Origin: Bdellovibrionales bacterium
GTDB lineage: Bacteria > Bdellovibrionota > UBA1018
Assembly: GCA_016786465.1 (NCBI GenBank)
Contig: JAEUWC010000014.1
Location: 62,001-126,000, forward strand
Reading direction: 5' to 3'
Length of the DNA: 64,000 nucleotides
The notes under the pieces were generated by a model, which saw only the letters and a list, made by a program, of their open reading frames with translations, was not told the DNA's origin and ran no database searches. Shown here piece by piece: positions 4,735 through 19,854 of this stretch (its first letter is position 1; each line of letters begins with the position of its first letter). Position numbers and translations under genes: made by a program.

Positions 4735-6162
4735 ATGGCACGTGTTTCGTCGAGGTTCATCACCGCATGCGGCTTCCTTTTGTTAGCCGCCTGCCGGACC
4801 GAAGTCAGTTCGCTTGGGGTCAAGGTTTCCCTGGAAGAACATCGTCTTTCCAATGGTCTTCGAGTGATCTTGGTTGAGGACCACACGGTCCCGACGATCA
4901 GCTACCAGACCTGGTACAAGGTGGGGTCTAGGGACGAAGTCCCAGGAATGACAGGGCTAGCGCACCTTTTCGAGCATCTGATGTTCAAAGGAACGGATCG
5001 TTACGGTCCGAAATCCTTTTTTGATCTTTTGGAAGCGCGTGGCGCAGAAGTGAACGCTTTCACCACACGAGACTATACCAGCTATTACGTCAACACGGTT
5101 CCGGCCCTTTTGGATCAAATCATTGATTTGGAATCCGATCGGATGACGGGGCTGAAATTGGACGACACGACCTTGGCTTCTGAACGGATGGTCGTACTGG
5201 AAGAAAGAAAACTGCGAATCGACAGTCAGCCCGTCGGACTGATGCAAGAAGCGATCTGGGCTTTGGCGTTTCGTCGGCACCCGTACCATTGGCCGGTGAT
5301 CGGAATGCCGGAAGACATCATTTCGGTGCCGGCCGAAAAAATTCGTGAATTTTATCGACGTTATTATCATCCCGGCAACGCGATCTTGGTTGTCGCAGGC
5401 GATTTCAAGCCCGACGAACTTTTTGAAAAAATCAAAAAGGCTTACGGCAAGATTCCGCGGGGACAGGAAACCGAGCGCACGAAGATCACGGAATTTGAAC
5501 AGAACGAAGAACGTCGGCTGAACCTTTATGATGAAGTCGCTTCGGAAAAGTTCGCGCACGCGTACCCGATTCCTTCAGCTCACGAAGAAGACGCGTATGC
5601 CTTAGACATCCTTGCGACCATTTTGTTTGCCGGTAGCCAGTCGCGAGCCCATCGGGATCTGGTCGAAGAAAAGAAACTGACTTCGGATGTGGCTGGGGTC
5701 GCATACACCCCGAATGAACCCGGGCTTTTTCTGATTTCGGCATCGATGCGCACGGGACATTCGGCGACTGAAGCCGAAGAAAAGCTGAACGCTTTGATTC
5801 GTGATGTTCAGGAAAACGGAGTCACCCAGGAAGAAATCGAAAAAGCGGTGAAGCAGCTGACGCTTCAAGCAATTGAGAATCTGAAAACCCATTCGGGTAC
5901 TGCAACCCTGATCGGAACAGTGACCACCATTTTGGAAAAGCCGGAACGTTATGCCGACGATCTGGCCAAGTACACTAAGGTCAGCCGTGAAGACGTCCAG
6001 CGGGTCGCTGAAACCTACCTTCAGCCTAACAAGCGGTCCGTAGTAGTTCTTTACCCGGAATCCAAACGCCCGAAGCCCGAAGTCAAAGCTGACGTTTCGA
6101 AGAAAGAAAAACCAAAGGCGACCGTGAAAAAACGAGCCCGAAAGAAAGGAACCACGTCATGA
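4735..6162 (+). CDS. M16 zinc peptidase, catalytic subunit, lipoprotein
   Basis: A 475-residue insulinase-family (M16) peptidase. The inverted zinc motif HLFEH is at 77-81, with the downstream Glu ligand near 157 (VVLEERKL). The N-terminus ends in a lipobox-like LLLAAC with Cys20, so the mature protein is probably lipidated. The C-terminus is Lys/Arg-rich. The next gene overlaps by 4 bases and encodes a second M16 chain lacking the zinc motif. The two most likely form a heterodimer, as known for other bacterial and mitochondrial M16B enzymes, degrading peptides in the envelope. Confidence 0.9.
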   Translation: MARVSSRFITACGFLLLAACRTEVSSLGVKVSLEEHRLSNGLRVILVEDHTVPTISYQTWYKVGSRDEVPGMTGLAHLFEHLMFKGTDRYGPKSFFDLLEARGAEVNAFTTRDYTSYYVNTVPALLDQIIDLESDRMTGLKLDDTTLASERMVVLEERKLRIDSQPVGLMQEAIWALAFRRHPYHWPVIGMPEDIISVPAEKIREFYRRYYHPGNAILVVAGDFKPDELFEKIKKAYGKIPRGQETERTKITEFEQNEERRLNLYDEVASEKFAHAYPIPSAHEEDAYALDILATILFAGSQSRAHRDLVEEKKLTSDVAGVAYTPNEPGLFLISASMRTGHSATEAEEKLNALIRDVQENGVTQEEIEKAVKQLTLQAIENLKTHSGTATLIGTVTTILEKPERYADDLAKYTKVSREDVQRVAETYLQPNKRSVVVLYPESKRPKPEVKADVSKKEKPKATVKKRARKKGTTS

Positions 6163-13144: not shown

Positions 13145-14380
13145 CTAGAATCCCATCCGATCAAGAACAGTGTTGATGCGATAGGCGACGTTGAATCTTT
13201 CGTTGGGTGCGGAAAGGCTTGATAGTGCTGAATGCAATGCGTCCGTCAAATGAACCCGGATGTTGGCTTTCGACACGCCACCAAGCTGATAGGATTCCAT
13301 TTTTTGAATGGAAAGCAAAAGGGCCTTTTGCATCGTTTCGTCTGAAAATTCATCGGCAAGGTGACACAGAACTTCCAGCGTCAGGTTTTCCCACGAATAA
13401 CTGTGCTGTTCGTGCATCTGGCTGTAGCGGCTCCACTTTTTACCGGACATCACTTGACGGGCTTTTCCGTGGTCTCCAAGTTTTGCGATGATCTTGTCAT
13501 AGCCCATGATCTGCATGGCGAAGAAGTTTGCGATGCCTTCTAATACTGGGGTTGAATTTCCGATTGGCAGGGTCTTGGCCAGGGCGATGTGTGTGTATTC
13601 GTGATAAGCCACTTCAGGAATGGTTGCCGTATCAAGAAAGACTTTTCGTTTGATCATGCGGCCAAAGACGCCCAAGACTTTGGGGACCGCTTCAGTGATC
13701 GCAAAGTTCACTGCAATCTGCTTCAAGTGGTACTTTGGATTGATCAAAGTATCGAAGCGAACGCTCATTTGTGCGTATTGGGTCAGCGCATTGTTCAAAA
13801 GTCCGAATCGCACCTGTGCGTACATGGCTTTATTTTTCGACGCTTCGTCAAAAGCAGCCAACGCCGTTTTTTCGGAAACTTCCTTTTGAGGTCGGAACCA
13901 AATTTCGTAGTTCCACGATGGGTAATTATCCAACTTTTCGTCATCCGACTTTGGGATTGAAGTCGCGTTGTTGTAGCTAGGGGCTAGGCTGTCGTTCATG
14001 AACCTAGCCAGGTCGGTAAATTGGTTGGTGATGTCCAACCGAACCGTTAAGTGGCCGATGTGTTCAAGGCCAGATTCACCCACAAGGTTGACCCAGAATT
14101 TACGCGCTGTAGTTAGGTTGTGATAGACCGACGCGGCTCGGATTCCCATTTCGCTTCCATCCAGCGCAATCGGAGTCTCGGATTTCTGATCGACGACCTT
14201 GAAATGCTTTCCTTCGGCAAATCCTGGATCAACAAGATCCTCCAGGGCGTGTTCCTGAAGCTCGATTTGGTGGGTCTCGTCGTTGCGTACGTAAACCTGA
14301 TGGGTTTTCGTGAACGCGTAAACCGAGGAAGACTGGGTCAGACTAAAAAACAATATTGCCAGCGCGCTGCTTTTTAGCAT
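13145..14380 (-). CDS. Secreted HEXXH metallopeptidase-like protein
   Basis: 411 residues with a signal peptide (about 1-22, ending VYA). His260-Glu-x-x-His264 (YHEYTHIAL) plus Glu281 in VLEGIANFFA gives the HExxH...E set of a gluzincin-type zinc peptidase. No named family is recognised. A strong AGGAGG ribosome-binding site lies 6 bases before the ATG, inside the 3' end of the upstream gene, which it overlaps by 38 bases. It is the last gene of a minus-strand cluster with an EF-hand-like protein and two paralogous coiled-coil envelope proteins. Substrate and export route beyond Sec are unknown. Confidence 0.7.
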   Translation of the reverse strand: MLKSSALAILFFSLTQSSSVYAFTKTHQVYVRNDETHQIELQEHALEDLVDPGFAEGKHFKVVDQKSETPIALDGSEMGIRAASVYHNLTTARKFWVNLVGESGLEHIGHLTVRLDITNQFTDLARFMNDSLAPSYNNATSIPKSDDEKLDNYPSWNYEIWFRPQKEVSEKTALAAFDEASKNKAMYAQVRFGLLNNALTQYAQMSVRFDTLINPKYHLKQIAVNFAITEAVPKVLGVFGRMIKRKVFLDTATIPEVAYHEYTHIALAKTLPIGNSTPVLEGIANFFAMQIMGYDKIIAKLGDHGKARQVMSGKKWSRYSQMHEQHSYSWENLTLEVLCHLADEFSDETMQKALLLSIQKMESYQLGGVSKANIRVHLTDALHSALSSLSAPNERFNVAYRINTVLDRMGF

Positions 14381-15428
14381 TCTTGACCTCCTCTAGGGTG
14401 TTTAGAAAGATGATTCCCGTGGTTGCATAGACCGCGGTCGCAGGATTGATCATTAAGGCGGCCGTTCCTACGCTTTTGACCAGATGAAGAAGATTGCGGA
14501 AGAAGCGAGGACGGGGATCGTTCATATCCGTGATTTCAGCAATTCTTTGCAGAAGGTCCATGTCGATGACACCGGTTTCAAGGCCGGCAGTCATCAAATC
14601 CGTTTTGCTGAAACCCGTTTTTGCAAGGACCTTGTCGCCGATGTTCCATTCCTGAACCAAGCGATTCAGTTCGTCTTCGCCAAATCGAAACCTTTCCTCA
14701 AAACCCAGTTCCCTTTTATAGTCGGCTTTTCCATCGCCGTCGTAATCGATATCGATAGATCCGCGTTCAGAACTTTGGATCTTTAGGATAATTTCAATCA
14801 ACTGGGACATTCGTCCGATTTGTGCAAAAGTGTATCGTTTATAAAGAAATTCTCTGGGGGTCAGGTTTTCTTCATTGCCCAGATCGCGGCGAAAACGGGC
14901 TCTTCTTTGGTACGGATTCTTCGCGCGCGTTTCGTTCGTTTTGCGGGTAACTTGGACCAAAGAAAGCGAATTCCAGTACTGCTGAATGAATGGGTCCTGT
15001 GGTTTTGATACCAGATAAAGCCTTGGATTCAGCAAGGCGGTCGCCACGGGGTCATCAAAGTATTCTTTAGCCCGAAGGGTCGCGACAATCGGTTCGATGG
15101 CTCTGGATGCGCAATCTTCTAGTGAAACTTCTCGGTTCGGTTGTTCCGCGCAAGCCTTCATTTCGGGTTGGGCAGCCAGGCGAATCGGTTCGACAATTTC
15201 GGAAACTTGAAAGCGGTATTCAGAAAGGGAATTGTAGATTTCCGGAAAGGCTTTTTCGAAGTGATCGAAAAGTTCAGGGTATCGATTCTGGGTTCGTTCC
15301 TGTGCCGCGGATGAAATCGAATGCTTGCTGGGGATTTCAAGATCCGGACGAAAAAGCATTTCCGTGGATCCGCTGGCGTCGGAAATCAGGGCGATTAGAA
15401 TCGTCGAAATGAATCCAAGCTTGAGCAT
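14343..15428 (-). CDS. Exported protein with EF-hand-like Ca-binding loop
   Basis: I place the start at the ATG at 15428 because it opens directly into a signal peptide (MLKLGFISTILIALISDASG). An in-frame TTG at 15467 would add 13 residues and has no better ribosome-binding site. The 361-residue product is mostly helical and charged. Near the middle it carries DIDYDGDGKADYKREL, matching the DxDxDGxxD calcium loop of EF-hand, dockerin and thrombospondin-3 repeats. A hydrophobic helix near the C-terminus (VGTAALMINPATAVYATTGIIF) could be a membrane anchor. Family not recognised. It lies between the paralogue genes and the HEXXH gene. Confidence 0.65.
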   Translation of the reverse strand: MLKLGFISTILIALISDASGSTEMLFRPDLEIPSKHSISSAAQERTQNRYPELFDHFEKAFPEIYNSLSEYRFQVSEIVEPIRLAAQPEMKACAEQPNREVSLEDCASRAIEPIVATLRAKEYFDDPVATALLNPRLYLVSKPQDPFIQQYWNSLSLVQVTRKTNETRAKNPYQRRARFRRDLGNEENLTPREFLYKRYTFAQIGRMSQLIEIILKIQSSERGSIDIDYDGDGKADYKRELGFEERFRFGEDELNRLVQEWNIGDKVLAKTGFSKTDLMTAGLETGVIDMDLLQRIAEITDMNDPRPRFFRNLLHLVKSVGTAALMINPATAVYATTGIIFLNTLEEVKNAKKQRAGNIVF

Positions 15429-15537
15429 CCCTTGGGATAAAGCAATTCTTGTACCCACCGAATTCAAATCAGGTACGCTTGGATGACGTTTTCAGCGGCC
15501 CTTGTGTCCAAGGACTAGACGACTGTCGGATGGCGCT

Positions 15538-16434
15538 TTAGTTTTTGCAGTCTTTTGAACCGAAAACGATCAAGGGGGCACCGGCAAGGATTCCGGTTAG
15601 GCCTGCGCCTAAGTACAGGCCCTGATGGCGACCCAGGGATCTTAGTTCTGCAGATTCGGACTGGGCGATCTTGCTCATCGCCAAATCATATTCGATCTGG
15701 GAAAGGCTAAGGTCCACAGAAAGGGATCCGATCTTTTCTTTGTAGCTTTGAATCGATGACTGCAATTCCTGCAACTGGCTTTGAAAGGATGCAACTTGGG
15801 CCGAATTATAAACACCGCTGTCGATCTTTCTTTGCAGTTCAGTCGCTTGAATCTGTGCTGTACCCAATAGCGCGTTGTAATTGCTTTTTTGAACATCCAA
15901 GGCGCCTTGGTGGTTCAAGAATGCTTGCGTCGTTTGTCCCACTTTGTCTGCGTAATCTTCTTGAACGTGATTCTTGCGGATCTGGTTTCTAAGGCTAATC
16001 AGGGTCAGCACGGCTCCGGCCAAGGCCAATGGAATTCCGACACCCAGTCCAACTGCGCACGAAATCTTAAAGTCAGATCCGCGCCGACTGCCTGATGACG
16101 AAATCTGCGAAAGTACAAAAGAATGGTACGGGGACCCATTTTCCTGGGCCTTCGAACCCAGTTCTATTGCACGCGTGAATAGATGCCTTTCGTCTTCTGA
16201 TGCGTACTGCGAAACAAATGAAATCAGATCGGCTGAAGTCACTTGGGCGTCAGACATCAGGCGCCCCATCAGTTGATAGGCTTCTTCATTGGTCTTGCCA
16301 TCAACCAAAATGGACGCCTTGGCTTGGTTCACGATCTTTTTCACCAAAAGCGCGCCACTGGGTGGCGTCTGCGCATGGGTGATCTGCGATGCGAGAAGAA
16401 CCAATGTGATCCAGAAGCTTTGAGTTTTTGCCAT
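15538..16434 (-). CDS. Envelope coiled-coil paralogue 1 (SCxxGLG family)
   Basis: 298 residues from the ATG at 16434. An upstream in-frame TTG at 16449 lies inside the terminator of the preceding gene and is rejected. Order: signal peptide ending THAQ; helical domain with ILVDGK; motif GSDFKISCAVGLGVGIP leading into a membrane segment; about 110 residues of coiled coil with KIDSGVY at a likely hairpin turn; a second hydrophobic segment (LTGILAGAPLIVFG); and a C-terminal SKDCKN. The same order and motifs occur in the genes at 16492 and 17586. No known family is recognised. Confidence 0.8.
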   Translation of the reverse strand: MAKTQSFWITLVLLASQITHAQTPPSGALLVKKIVNQAKASILVDGKTNEEAYQLMGRLMSDAQVTSADLISFVSQYASEDERHLFTRAIELGSKAQENGSPYHSFVLSQISSSGSRRGSDFKISCAVGLGVGIPLALAGAVLTLISLRNQIRKNHVQEDYADKVGQTTQAFLNHQGALDVQKSNYNALLGTAQIQATELQRKIDSGVYNSAQVASFQSQLQELQSSIQSYKEKIGSLSVDLSLSQIEYDLAMSKIAQSESAELRSLGRHQGLYLGAGLTGILAGAPLIVFGSKDCKN

Positions 16435-16447
16435 TGAAATCCAGGTC

Positions 16448-16478
16448 AAAAAAAAGGCCCCGCCAAAGGCGGGGCCTT
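16448..16478 (-). terminator. Rho-independent terminator after paralogue 2
   Basis: AAGGCCCCGCC (16454-16464), loop AAA, GGCGGGGCCTT (16468-16478). Read on the minus strand it is an 11-bp GC-rich stem followed by eight U residues, a strong terminator just after the gene ending at 16492. It separates that gene from the paralogue at 15538-16434, which must therefore have its own promoter or depend on read-through. Confidence 0.9.
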
Positions 16479-16491
16479 AGGTTTCATTTGA

Positions 16492-17403
16492 TTAACAGTC
16501 GCCTGCCGTTGCGCCCAAGATGATGAATGGGATACCGATCAGGATGGTCGGAACCGCAACGTATGGAAGTACATCGTTTTGCTTCTTGGCGATACGAGCT
16601 TCGCTGACTTCCTTTTGTGAAAGGACGTCCATGGTGTTGTCGTACTGTGCGTTCAGGATCTGAATGGAAGCCGTAGTGCCGCCAGCCAAGTTTTCTTGTG
16701 CAACGATGTCAGAATTCAGCTTTGCGATCTGAGCGTAGAATTCCTGTTCTTCGTTGATTCCGTAGTAGCCGCTTTCGATCTTGCGCTCAAGCTCGGTGAT
16801 GGCTGCTTTGCTAACGGCAATCTTCTGATTCGCGCTAGCCAATTGAACTTCCAAGGTTCCCTTTTTTGAAATGTAGTCAGCAGTCGCATTGTTTCGCTTG
16901 TCGATATAATCAGCTGCGATTTCATCAGGCTTGCTTAGGTTCGCCAAGTAAACGATTCCGGTAATCAATCCAGCCAAGGTCAAAGGAATTCCGATTCCCA
17001 ATCCGGCTCCGCAGGACATGTTGAAGTTCGATCCCTTCTTCATTTCGCGAAGACCGATCTGGTTCAAAACGACTGACGCAGAATCAGGATTCATTCCTTT
17101 GGACTTGTTCAACGCCTGGTTGAAGATCTCGCGTTCTTCAGCAGATCCGTTTTGATTGACGTAAGAAATAATGTCAGTGGTCGTGACGTTTTGTTCGGCC
17201 AACTGCTTCTTCAAAAAATTCTGCGCTTCTAGATCCGATTTGCCTTCGACCAAAACCAAGCTCTTGGTGCTTTTTAGAATCTTCTTCACTTTCGATGCGC
17301 CATTTTCGGCGGGGCCTTGCGATTGTGCAAAAGCGGGGCTTGCGGTTTGAATGATGATGGCTCCAAGAGCCAAGACTGCAGTCAGGCGGTTTAGTTTTTT
17401 CAC
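16492..17403 (-). CDS. Envelope coiled-coil paralogue 2 (SCxxGLG family)
   Basis: 303 residues, GTG start with AAGGAG seven bases upstream. Signal peptide about 1-26 (ending PAFAQ). Helical domain 38-125 with LVLVEGK and TTTDIISYV. Motif GSNFNMSCGAGLGIGIP puts Cys131 just before membrane segment 1 (133-156). Coiled coil is about 160-270 with KIESGYY at a probable turn near 208. Membrane segment 2 is 280-299, and the last residue is Cys303. A periplasmic coiled-coil hairpin between two membrane segments with a possible Cys131-Cys303 pairing is one model. Function unknown. It is divergent from the third paralogue and ends at a strong terminator. Confidence 0.82.
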   Translation of the reverse strand: MKKLNRLTAVLALGAIIIQTASPAFAQSQGPAENGASKVKKILKSTKSLVLVEGKSDLEAQNFLKKQLAEQNVTTTDIISYVNQNGSAEEREIFNQALNKSKGMNPDSASVVLNQIGLREMKKGSNFNMSCGAGLGIGIPLTLAGLITGIVYLANLSKPDEIAADYIDKRNNATADYISKKGTLEVQLASANQKIAVSKAAITELERKIESGYYGINEEQEFYAQIAKLNSDIVAQENLAGGTTASIQILNAQYDNTMDVLSQKEVSEARIAKKQNDVLPYVAVPTILIGIPFIILGATAGDC

Positions 17404-17585
17404 GGGGGGTCTCCTTGTTTCTAAAATTGACTTAATTAGTACACTAATTTGGCTTTATTCAGCAAGTGTTTTATTCTAAAAAGTTATAAGTAATTGAAAA
17501 TAAACAATAAAATAAGATCAAAAAGCAGACCAAAATAGTAAAGATTTAGATGTACTTTTTTCGCAAAATAGGTGAAAAAGGGTCC
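17404..17585. promoter_or_regulatory. AT-rich divergent promoter region of paralogues 2 and 3
   Basis: About 180 bases of clearly AT-rich sequence separate two divergently transcribed paralogues. TTGACT with AT-rich hexamers such as TATAAG lies in the region, but several -35/-10 pairings are possible and I cannot choose one. Its base composition differs sharply from the flanking coding DNA, which suits two divergent promoters. Confidence 0.45.
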
Positions 17586-18461
17586 ATGAAATTTTTCATT
17601 TCTATGCTTTCGTTGATGCAAGTCTTTTCAAATTCGGTGTGGGCAAATGAATCCGGTGCCGATCGCGTCCGAAGCGAAATCAAAAAATTCAGGGCAGCCG
17701 TCTTGGTGGATGGAATTCAAGAAAGCCGCGCGATTGAATCTTTTGCAGACAGTCTTGAAAAGGCGCAGATTACTCCTGCTGACGTGATGGCATTTTTGCG
17801 AAAATACGGAACCCAGGACGAAACGATTCTTTATCATCAGACCCTTGAAACGGCTGCAGCGAATCGACCGGAAATTCTAAGCGAAGTTCTTCAAAGTGCC
17901 ATGCAAACCCAAGGAAAGATGGGTTCGGATTTTCGCGTTTCTTGCGGATTGGGCCTAGGTGTTTCAGTCCCCGTGATTCTTGCGGGACTGACAGCTGGAA
18001 TTGTTTTTGTGTGGAACCTGAACCGCGACCAGAAAATTGAACTGAATTACGCAAGCCGTCTGAGCCGTGCGACTTCGGAATACTATGTCGCCAAGGGGCC
18101 TTTGGAAGTTTCATTGGCCAGCCAAGCGCAGCAGGTTGCGATCAATAAAACGCAAATGTCATTTCTTCAGCAGAAGATCGATTCAGGGATTTATAGCGCT
18201 CAAGAAGTTGAAGCGTTTAATCAGGAAATTTCGATGCTGAAAGTCGCGAATGCTTCGATCCAAAACAGCACTGAAGCGGATACGGCAAAGATTAAGTTCC
18301 TGAATCAAACGTATGATCAGGAAGTCCAAACACTTTTGGGTTCAAAGAACCAACAAATGACCCGTTGGAAAAGTAAACAAACGTTAAGAGCCATCGTATC
18401 CGCGGCGACTTTGGGCGTGGGAATCCCGCTATTTGTCGCGACCGTGCCGAAGTGTAAGTGA
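17586..18461 (+). CDS. Envelope coiled-coil paralogue 3 (SCxxGLG family)
   Basis: 291 residues from the ATG at 17586, chosen because AAAAAGGG precedes it and a signal peptide (MKFFISMLSLMQVFSNSVWA) follows at once. An upstream ATG at 17550 would add 12 residues before that signal. The family order is kept: helical domain with VLVDG and TPADVMAFL; GSDFRVSCGLGLGVSVP before membrane segment 1; coiled coil with KIDSGIY; second hydrophobic stretch with GIPLFVA; C-terminal PKCK. It is encoded divergently from paralogue 2. Possibly it forms hetero-oligomers with the other two (inference). Confidence 0.8.
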   Translation: MKFFISMLSLMQVFSNSVWANESGADRVRSEIKKFRAAVLVDGIQESRAIESFADSLEKAQITPADVMAFLRKYGTQDETILYHQTLETAAANRPEILSEVLQSAMQTQGKMGSDFRVSCGLGLGVSVPVILAGLTAGIVFVWNLNRDQKIELNYASRLSRATSEYYVAKGPLEVSLASQAQQVAINKTQMSFLQQKIDSGIYSAQEVEAFNQEISMLKVANASIQNSTEADTAKIKFLNQTYDQEVQTLLGSKNQQMTRWKSKQTLRAIVSAATLGVGIPLFVATVPKCK

Positions 18462-18510: not shown

Positions 18511-19854
18511 ATGGGGAAGTCTGTTTGCGTTTTTGTTTTGGGGCTAGCACTGAACGGTGCGTGTTTAGGTGCTACGGCTTTTGCAGCTGCCGGTGTTCCC
18601 CCGGGTGCTAGCGCAAAGTGCACGAAGTATGTGCAGGGTTTGCCCGCTGAAATCGAAACGGATTTCATCATGGTCCCCGAAGACTGGGACAATCCAACGG
18701 CTTCTCCCTTAATCCCGATTTTCTTTTACGCTCCAGATCTTTATCAAAATCAAAAATGGATTGCCTACTTCAATGGCGGACCCGGCGGTTCGACCCACGG
18801 GATCTATGCCTATTTTAAAAAATACACGCCGCTGTCCGCGGGCGTGCCATTCCTTTATATCGATCAACGCGGAACAGGGTGTTCAGGTTCGTTTCCTGAA
18901 GTTCCAGTGACCCTAGAAGGCGCTAAACGTATGGCGCTTTATGGAACTCGAAGCATCGTCCGCGATGCCGAAGCCGTTCGACGACATCTGCTGAAGGACA
19001 AGCCTTGGGGAATTTTTGGGCAAAGTTACGGCGGCTACATTGTTCATCGCTACATTGCTCTTTATCCAAAATCCGTTGAACATGCGGTCGTTCAAGGCGC
19101 AAGTTTGATGGATAACGGAATTCGTTGGGTGGAAACGCGCTTGCTTGCGCAGCAACGTGCGGCGACTGAATACTTGAAGCAGTATCCGGGCGATGCCGAA
19201 ATTTTGGAAAAAGCCCGCAGCCAAGTTCCGGCTGACTATTGCCAAGGAAACCAGACTGCCGTGGCCTGTGGTCCGGGTCTTTTGGATGGAATCGCTTGGG
19301 GCCAGATTGCGTTTCCAAAAGGGTGGCCAAATCTTCACAAGACCTACGCGGGCCTTTTGAAAGCGGATGGAACGTTAGACCTGGCTTACCTGGGTACTTT
19401 GATTCCTAAGCAGGTCGACGCGACTGATTCGATGGCCGATTTCTTGGTGGCGGTAGTTCCTGGGCGCGAATTGCCCGGCGGTCTTTTGAATACCTGGTCT
19501 TGCCAAAAGGCCGTGCCCAGGATGAAGCGCAAGGGAATCGACACGAATTCTTGGTTTTATTCCGAGTGTCGGGGAGCGCTTTCGATCCAAGCGAAGTACG
19601 ATTCATTTTTGAAAAAGATCGTGAAGGACGACTCCATCCGCTTGAAAGACGTGCATCGTTCTTTGAAAAAGAACCCAGGTCTTCAGTTCCATCTTTTTTC
19701 GGGCGAATTGGACACCTTCGTGGCGCGCGAGTCCTACCAGCAGGAAGTGAAAAAGTTGGGACGCCTGGCCAATTTTAGCTTCATGAATGTCATGAATATT
19801 GGCCATGACTGGACGAATTCGAAGGAAGTTTGGGCGGCGCTGAAAAAGTACTGA
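18511..19854 (+). CDS. Secreted S33-family alpha/beta hydrolase (aminopeptidase-like)
   Basis: 447 residues with a signal peptide (about 1-26). Oxyanion motif NGGPGGS at 88-94, DQRGTGCSG at 119-126 and nucleophile elbow GQSYGG with Ser172 match S33 peptidases of the tricorn-interacting / SlpD-like type. A late SGELDTFV supplies the Asp and NIGHDW the His. Such enzymes usually release N-terminal residues, often proline, from peptides; specificity here is not certain. It lies just behind the hairpin at 18486 and is followed by kdsB. Confidence 0.85.
   Translation: MGKSVCVFVLGLALNGACLGATAFAAAGVPPGASAKCTKYVQGLPAEIETDFIMVPEDWDNPTASPLIPIFFYAPDLYQNQKWIAYFNGGPGGSTHGIYAYFKKYTPLSAGVPFLYIDQRGTGCSGSFPEVPVTLEGAKRMALYGTRSIVRDAEAVRRHLLKDKPWGIFGQSYGGYIVHRYIALYPKSVEHAVVQGASLMDNGIRWVETRLLAQQRAATEYLKQYPGDAEILEKARSQVPADYCQGNQTAVACGPGLLDGIAWGQIAFPKGWPNLHKTYAGLLKADGTLDLAYLGTLIPKQVDATDSMADFLVAVVPGRELPGGLLNTWSCQKAVPRMKRKGIDTNSWFYSECRGALSIQAKYDSFLKKIVKDDSIRLKDVHRSLKKNPGLQFHLFSGELDTFVARESYQQEVKKLGRLANFSFMNVMNIGHDWTNSKEVWAALKKY

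Follow-up and report, generated by a model that had tools for sequence, protein, structure and literature searches.

Three paralogous membrane proteins of a Bdellovibrionota locus and their linkage to a predicted zinc peptidase and a secreted partner

What do three paralogous membrane proteins of no recognised family do in the envelope of a Bdellovibrionota bacterium, and do they act alone? The question is raised by genes A, B and C of the 64,000-nucleotide stretch of DNA analysed here (the window). A preliminary description of this stretch presented their products as an unrecognised family. By homology, A, B and C appear not as a family of their own but as the two-transmembrane-domain class of a wider family of helical-domain transmembrane (TM) proteins, whose genes go together with those of a helper and a dedicated zinc peptidase. 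The genes at 14343-15467 and 13145-14380, overlooked in the preliminary description, are parts of the same system as A, B and C. Three unannotated protein families thus make up one module, with up to several copies per genome, found across a phylum to which the best-known predatory bacteria belong.

Three paralogues with a common layout

The open reading frames bear out the three paralogues that had been described here. Gene A (16492-17403, minus strand) encodes 303 residues from a GTG start; gene B (15538-16434, minus strand) encodes 298 and gene C (17586-18461, plus strand), which is divergently transcribed, encodes 291. Pairwise identities of 26-32%, and E values of 3e-43 and 1e-29 for C against A and B, make them true paralogues. 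All have a signal peptide, a helical domain, the motif GS[ND]FxxSC, a first transmembrane helix (TM1), a coiled coil, a second transmembrane helix (TM2) and a Cys at or adjoining the C-terminus. The GS[ND]F region reads GSNFNMSCGAGLGIGIP, GSDFKISCAVGLGVGIP and GSDFRVSCGLGLGVSVP in the three proteins, and the motif at the coil centre, KI[DE]SGxY, reads KIESGYY, KIDSGVY and KIDSGIY. In A, the parts are thus a signal peptide, a periplasmic helical domain, GSNFxxSC, TM1, a cytoplasmic coiled-coil hairpin, TM2 and the C-terminal Cys, the topology being predicted. The claim that the family is unrecognised stands: none of the three proteins scored above a curated cut-off in Pfam, NCBIfam, PHROGs or PADLOC, and a sequence search of the PDB likewise gave sub-threshold matches only. 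A tblastn search of phage and plasmid sequences was negative. Among the 13 two-TM homologues, the Gly of G-x-x-[FW], the Cys before TM1 and the C-terminal Cys are invariant (13/13), and 10 of them retain [ST]GxY in the middle of the coil. Both Cys residues thus held up as the invariant features they had been said to be, and the GS[ND]F Gly is invariant too; the GLG motif is not conserved.

The signals between the genes are also as first described. An intrinsic terminator on the minus strand separates A from B (16454-16478); its stem has 11 bp, 9 of them GC pairs, and its T tract runs on to about 16446. The divergent region between A and C (17404-17585) is 71% AT, against 48% for the window, and promoters are presumed to lie there; sigma-70 matches within it are at chance level only. 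Downstream of C and on the same strand, 18511-19854 encodes a secreted alpha/beta hydrolase like proline iminopeptidase.

A genome from another family of the same order (G054) carries orthologues of all three genes, A', B' and C', in tandem, followed by an orthologue of window gene 14343-15467 (45%) and then by the start of an orthologue of 13145-14380. The tree unites C and C' (100/98) as well as B and B' (98/95), and the nearest relative of A is A' (45% identity). These orthologous triplets place the triplication before the split of the lineages and, all copies having been kept, argue against redundancy. A, B and C thus appear to be three distinct, old and non-redundant subunits, in agreement with the earlier proposal of separate subunits. 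A terminator of different sequence occupies the equivalent position in G054, just before the start of B' (L010 7594-7621). From the terminator between A and B in both genomes, we infer that A is probably more abundant than B, the partner and the peptidase.

An AlphaFold2 model of A, built from 13 sequences, predicts a helical N-domain at moderate confidence and places TM1 at residues 131-156. Helices 158-211 and 216-299 form an antiparallel hairpin (pLDDT of 96-98 in the coil) whose turn, at residues 212-215, is exactly the SGYYG motif, and the second helix continues into TM2. Overall pTM is 0.43, and the placement of the N-domain relative to the hairpin is not reliable. Lys and Arg are commoner on the coil side in 13/13 of the two-TM sequences, which predicts a cytoplasmic hairpin with the N-domain and both Cys residues in the periplasm. 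Both transmembrane helices would then lie in the inner membrane, which lends no support to the envelope-spanning arrangement suggested before, and a bridge between the Cys before TM1 and the C-terminal Cys is plausible. Foldseek found no significant structural match to the model. Its top matches were AhlC and PaxB (E = 0.01, TM-scores 0.27-0.31 and at most 0.37 for their chains), with F-BAR, HlyD and ABC transporter helices alongside, and we set the likeness to AhlC aside as that of a generic coiled coil.

A linked peptidase and partner across Bdellovibrionota

A and B lie upstream of two further minus-strand genes. The partner (14343-15467) is secreted and mostly helical, with hydrophobic C-terminal helices, and belongs to no known family: Pfam, NCBIfam, PHROGs, PADLOC and the PDB gave sub-threshold matches only, and a Foldseek search with its low-confidence structure prediction (pLDDT 66) gave no significant match. 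Its end contains the start codon of the next gene (13145-14380), with an overlap of 38 bp. This second gene encodes a zinc peptidase of the gluzincin type with a signal peptide and the motif HEYTH-x16-EG, of which HEYTH (residues 260-264) is encoded at 13589-13603 on the minus strand. The active site is intact throughout the homologues compared. Among peptidase homologues of at least 360 aa, 98/98 keep HExxH and the downstream Glu; the third-ligand Glu stands as EG at a spacing of 16-17 in 91, and the other 7 keep a Glu nearby, with A, S or D as the next residue. Searches of the curated peptidase families in Pfam and NCBIfam gave no significant match, the best being to DUF2268 (a predicted Zn protease) at E 0.003 and in only 2 of 22 members. 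A profile of these 22 members, compared with PDB profiles, weakly matched aureolysin (M4) over the zinc site (E = 0.0016). By motif, 13145-14380 would encode a metallopeptidase of clan MA(E), for which zinc-dependent proteolysis is predicted.

The association of these genes extends well beyond the window. For 89 of 102 distinct peptidase genes, the next gene on the 5' side is the partner, and a homologous helical-domain TM protein lies at most 6 kb away in 85 of the 102 loci, at a median distance of 188 bp; several of the loci without a linked partner or TM protein are cut by contig ends. A, B and C themselves have both the peptidase and the partner linked to them, by profile match, and at two more loci in the genome of the window (contigs C3 and C12) a TM protein is likewise combined with partner and peptidase. 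Across 369 genomes of the phylum, counted with a non-iterated N-domain profile whose seed rows were drawn from peptidase neighbourhoods, peptidase and TM domain occur together in 67, the peptidase alone in 6, the TM domain alone in 5 and neither in 291. At genus level, 20 of the 22 genera with either have both, and 160 have neither. The two exceptions, one of each kind, comprise a peptidase fragment and, by eye, a short and more divergent TM protein beside a peptidase (L068 8097-8588). The non-iterated profile was chosen because an iterated N-domain HMM gave at least one false hit, window gene 4735-6162, which encodes an M16 (insulinase-type) peptidase.

A scan of contigs with the three paralogues alone as query gave no match, and the peptidase was needed as bait. 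With the peptidase alignment, a scan of about 85,000 species yielded 88 confirmed loci, of which 80 were kept. Nearly all of these are labelled Bacteriovoracaceae, Halobacteriovoraceae, Bdellovibrionales or Oligoflexia; a few come from metagenome-assembled genomes (MAGs) labelled unspecifically as Proteobacteria, and one from a MAG labelled Nitrosovibrio. As far as searched, then, the family is confined to Bdellovibrionota and often multi-copy, as had been anticipated; the scan used a single degenerate pattern and does not prove absence outside the phylum. Most carriers found are MAGs. The Nitrosovibrio label (sp. Nv4, CALPVV02; two module loci, L130 and L181) is probably wrong (cf. G046, of the window's order). 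In the Bdellovibrio-like family f11, remote matches with HExxH (E about 1e-9) stand among different genes and were left out of the module counts. The gene in question (L112-L114 and L118; f11 and others) encodes a lipoprotein-like HExxH protein remotely similar to the peptidase, and adjoins conserved genes whose small secreted products have about 130 aa; neither partner nor TM protein accompanies it.

We conclude that TM protein, partner and peptidase form a conserved module across Bdellovibrionota. The module appears to be new, in that neither a matching family nor, in open-access text, a published description of it was found, with a peptidase that by motif would fall in a known clan.

Two classes of TM protein, one helical domain

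All the TM proteins have the signal peptide, the helical domain and a juxtamembrane Gly-x-x-[FWY], and the Gly of this motif is the sole invariant column in 26 diverse N-domains. Class i proteins have one transmembrane helix and a low-complexity tail, which is collagen-like (Pfam E = 6e-69 for the collagen repeats), made of NNG repeats, Thr-rich or Tyr/Cys-rich; many of these tails end in YCY or CY. Class ii, the window type, has the coiled coil and a second transmembrane helix, with a Cys at the end. With signal peptide, transmembrane helix and motif removed, the helical domains of the two classes are homologous by hhalign at 95-97%, and 0/100 column shuffles exceeded 20% (in an initial control 1 of 5 column shuffles was spuriously high over 18 columns, and gappy columns were then removed). 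The window-type alignment alone reached 39% against class i without the motif and 94% with it. The positive-inside charge signal of class i is ambiguous, and collagen-like or Cys-rich tails would be odd in the cytoplasm.

Some loci show further variety. The TM proteins at L104 10179-11969, L157 3572-5026 and L152 3313-4257 have collagen-like tails with hundreds of residues of GDKG-type repeats, and those of family f5 (L050 11153-12427, L051 11176-12141, L054 7651-8430) carry long Thr-rich repeats (TVTNT/TQT) and have a Cys in their end part. In f5 loci a multi-TM protein of 550-600 aa, which has no Pfam match and looks GT-C glycosyltransferase-like by eye, is encoded between TM protein and partner. 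In several of them a secreted Gln_deamidase_2 (protein glutaminase) protein follows the peptidase (L050 5492-6448 by Pfam; L051 5848-6528 and L052 10078-10752 by eye). Two genes with HTTM domains (by Pfam in L100), both accompanied by a small gene, stand between peptidase and TM protein in Bacteriovoracaceae loci (L100 4439-7411, L102 4311-7280).

Peptidases and TM proteins are inherited together. Along a tree of 83 peptidases, the linked TM proteins switch class 2 times, against 15.8 in shuffles (0/500 as low). The tree divides by TM-protein class and not by host, hosts being mixed; long branches make its details unsure, and the row of the window is flagged as one. The branch that sets off the 65 class i rows is starred. 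Two genomes (G024 and G032) carry both classes, and there too the peptidases sort by class and not by genome, with one exception (L064 of G024). A cognate pair would give such a class-matched tree, and so would transfer of the operon as one unit.

What the module may do

The linkage of the module suggests a processing system in the envelope that is undescribed so far. Our best reading, to which we give somewhat less than an even chance, is that peptidase and helper process or control the cognate TM protein, with A, B and C as three non-redundant subunits of an inner-membrane protein. Each of the three would have its signal peptide cleaved and would consist of a periplasmic helical domain of some 90 residues, followed by TM1, a cytoplasmic antiparallel coiled-coil hairpin with SGxY at its tip, TM2 and a periplasmic C-terminal Cys able to bridge to the Cys before TM1. 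They would act with the dedicated periplasmic zinc peptidase and the helper encoded downstream of A-B, which would recognise them by the helical domain. The peptidase would clip at or near Gly-x-x-[FWY], maturing or releasing the membrane part. If the cut were made at GS[ND]F, which precedes the first Cys by seven residues, the N-domain would come free and the hairpin would stay in the membrane with both Cys residues; this pair would then keep the two-TM hairpin of A, B and C together. What is conserved throughout the phylum is the helical domain with its juxtamembrane G-[ASV]-x-[FWY], and the part that follows varies. A conserved recognition domain, an invariant site, a variable remainder and a dedicated peptidase with an intact active site make site-specific processing the simplest reading. 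Several points count against this reading: the motif could be structural, as a helix cap before TM1; the topology of class i is ambiguous; co-inheritance would also follow from operon transfer without contact between enzyme and substrate; gene C is not co-transcribed with the peptidase; and the partner, whose modelled fold is poorly predicted, offers no apparent clue to its role. More tentatively, the module may be a leader-plus-peptidase system specific to Bdellovibrionota, in which gluzincin and helper recognise a folded periplasmic N-domain with an invariant juxtamembrane Gly-x-x-aromatic site and mature unrelated C-terminal parts, peptidase and substrate classes are co-inherited, and the substrate in the window is a three-subunit complex. 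If the processing reading is right, a dedicated zinc peptidase would sort or mature envelope proteins in a new manner, in which the site is conserved and the cargo varies widely.

The main rival, which we consider unlikely, makes the TM proteins membrane receptors by which the peptidase is held, activated or restrained at the inner membrane; the cytoplasmic hairpin would relay a signal or serve as the scaffold of a complex, and the true substrate would lie elsewhere. Linkage, co-occurrence and class-matched trees fit such an anchor or regulator equally, a rigid cytoplasmic hairpin between two transmembrane helices would be apt for a scaffold, and the probable excess of A over peptidase set by the terminator fits a structural component. 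However, a conserved N-domain and invariant site before highly variable C-terminal parts resemble a leader plus cargo more than a single signalling machine, and collagen-repeat tails have no obvious part in a relay. Such tails, like the Thr-rich, NNG and Tyr/Cys-rich ones, would fit surface display or an appendage, as would the HTTM proteins and the multi-TM protein (about 550-600 aa) that adjoin some TM-protein genes. The N-domain and hydrophobic helix would then be an element of export or assembly, the variable parts would lie outside the cell after maturation by peptidase and helper, and hairpins would be one kind of cargo. We hold this to be rather improbable, as the charge bias in 13/13 of the window type predicts a cytoplasmic coil, and in a protein with a Sec signal peptide and only one strongly hydrophobic helix the C-terminus is normally cytoplasmic.

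If A, B and C formed a complex that spans the envelope or senses stress, along the lines suggested in the preliminary description, the peptidase genes would be unrelated neighbours. A periplasmic domain, a transmembrane helix, a cytoplasmic hairpin and three conserved subunits are in keeping with this, but linkage and co-occurrence across the phylum mark the neighbours as related, and such a complex now seems very improbable. A sensing role in itself is possible, but nothing favours it over processing. Least credible of all are tripartite alpha-helical pore-forming proteins like AhlABC: there are three tandem paralogues, and AhlC and PaxB head the structural matches of A, but the hydrophobic segments lie at the base of the hairpin and not at its tip, and many homologues have no coil.

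These pore-formers are ClyA-like, and A, B and C have in common with AhlABC and PaxAB a helical build, a coiled coil and, for the former, three tandem paralogues; they differ in lacking a significant structural match and in where their hydrophobic parts lie. Polysaccharide co-polymerases of the Wzz type have two transmembrane helices flanking a coiled coil, with a periplasmic loop and cytoplasmic termini. The flanked coil is common to A, B and C, whose termini are predicted to be periplasmic and whose coil is predicted to be cytoplasmic. With clan MA(E) (thermolysin/M4, e.g., aureolysin) the peptidase shares HExxH, a Glu 16-17 residues on and a weak profile match over the zinc site and C-terminal helices. 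No counterpart there was found for its N-terminal half or its invariant Arg, Asn and Trp-Phe, and it nearly always adjoins a partner and a TM protein. In the same phylum, the mosaic adhesive trimer fibres of Bdellovibrio also join a conserved part to a variable extension (PMC10769870). As far as their description goes, and it is by description that they were compared, the likeness is superficial, helical domain, transmembrane helix and peptidase linkage being absent from it. In its proposed way of working, the module most resembles prepilin peptidase and sortase-type sorting signals: its cleavage is only proposed, its peptidase is of a different clan, its motif is a different one and its N-domain is long and folded, but all of them combine a conserved recognition part and site with variable cargo and a dedicated peptidase.
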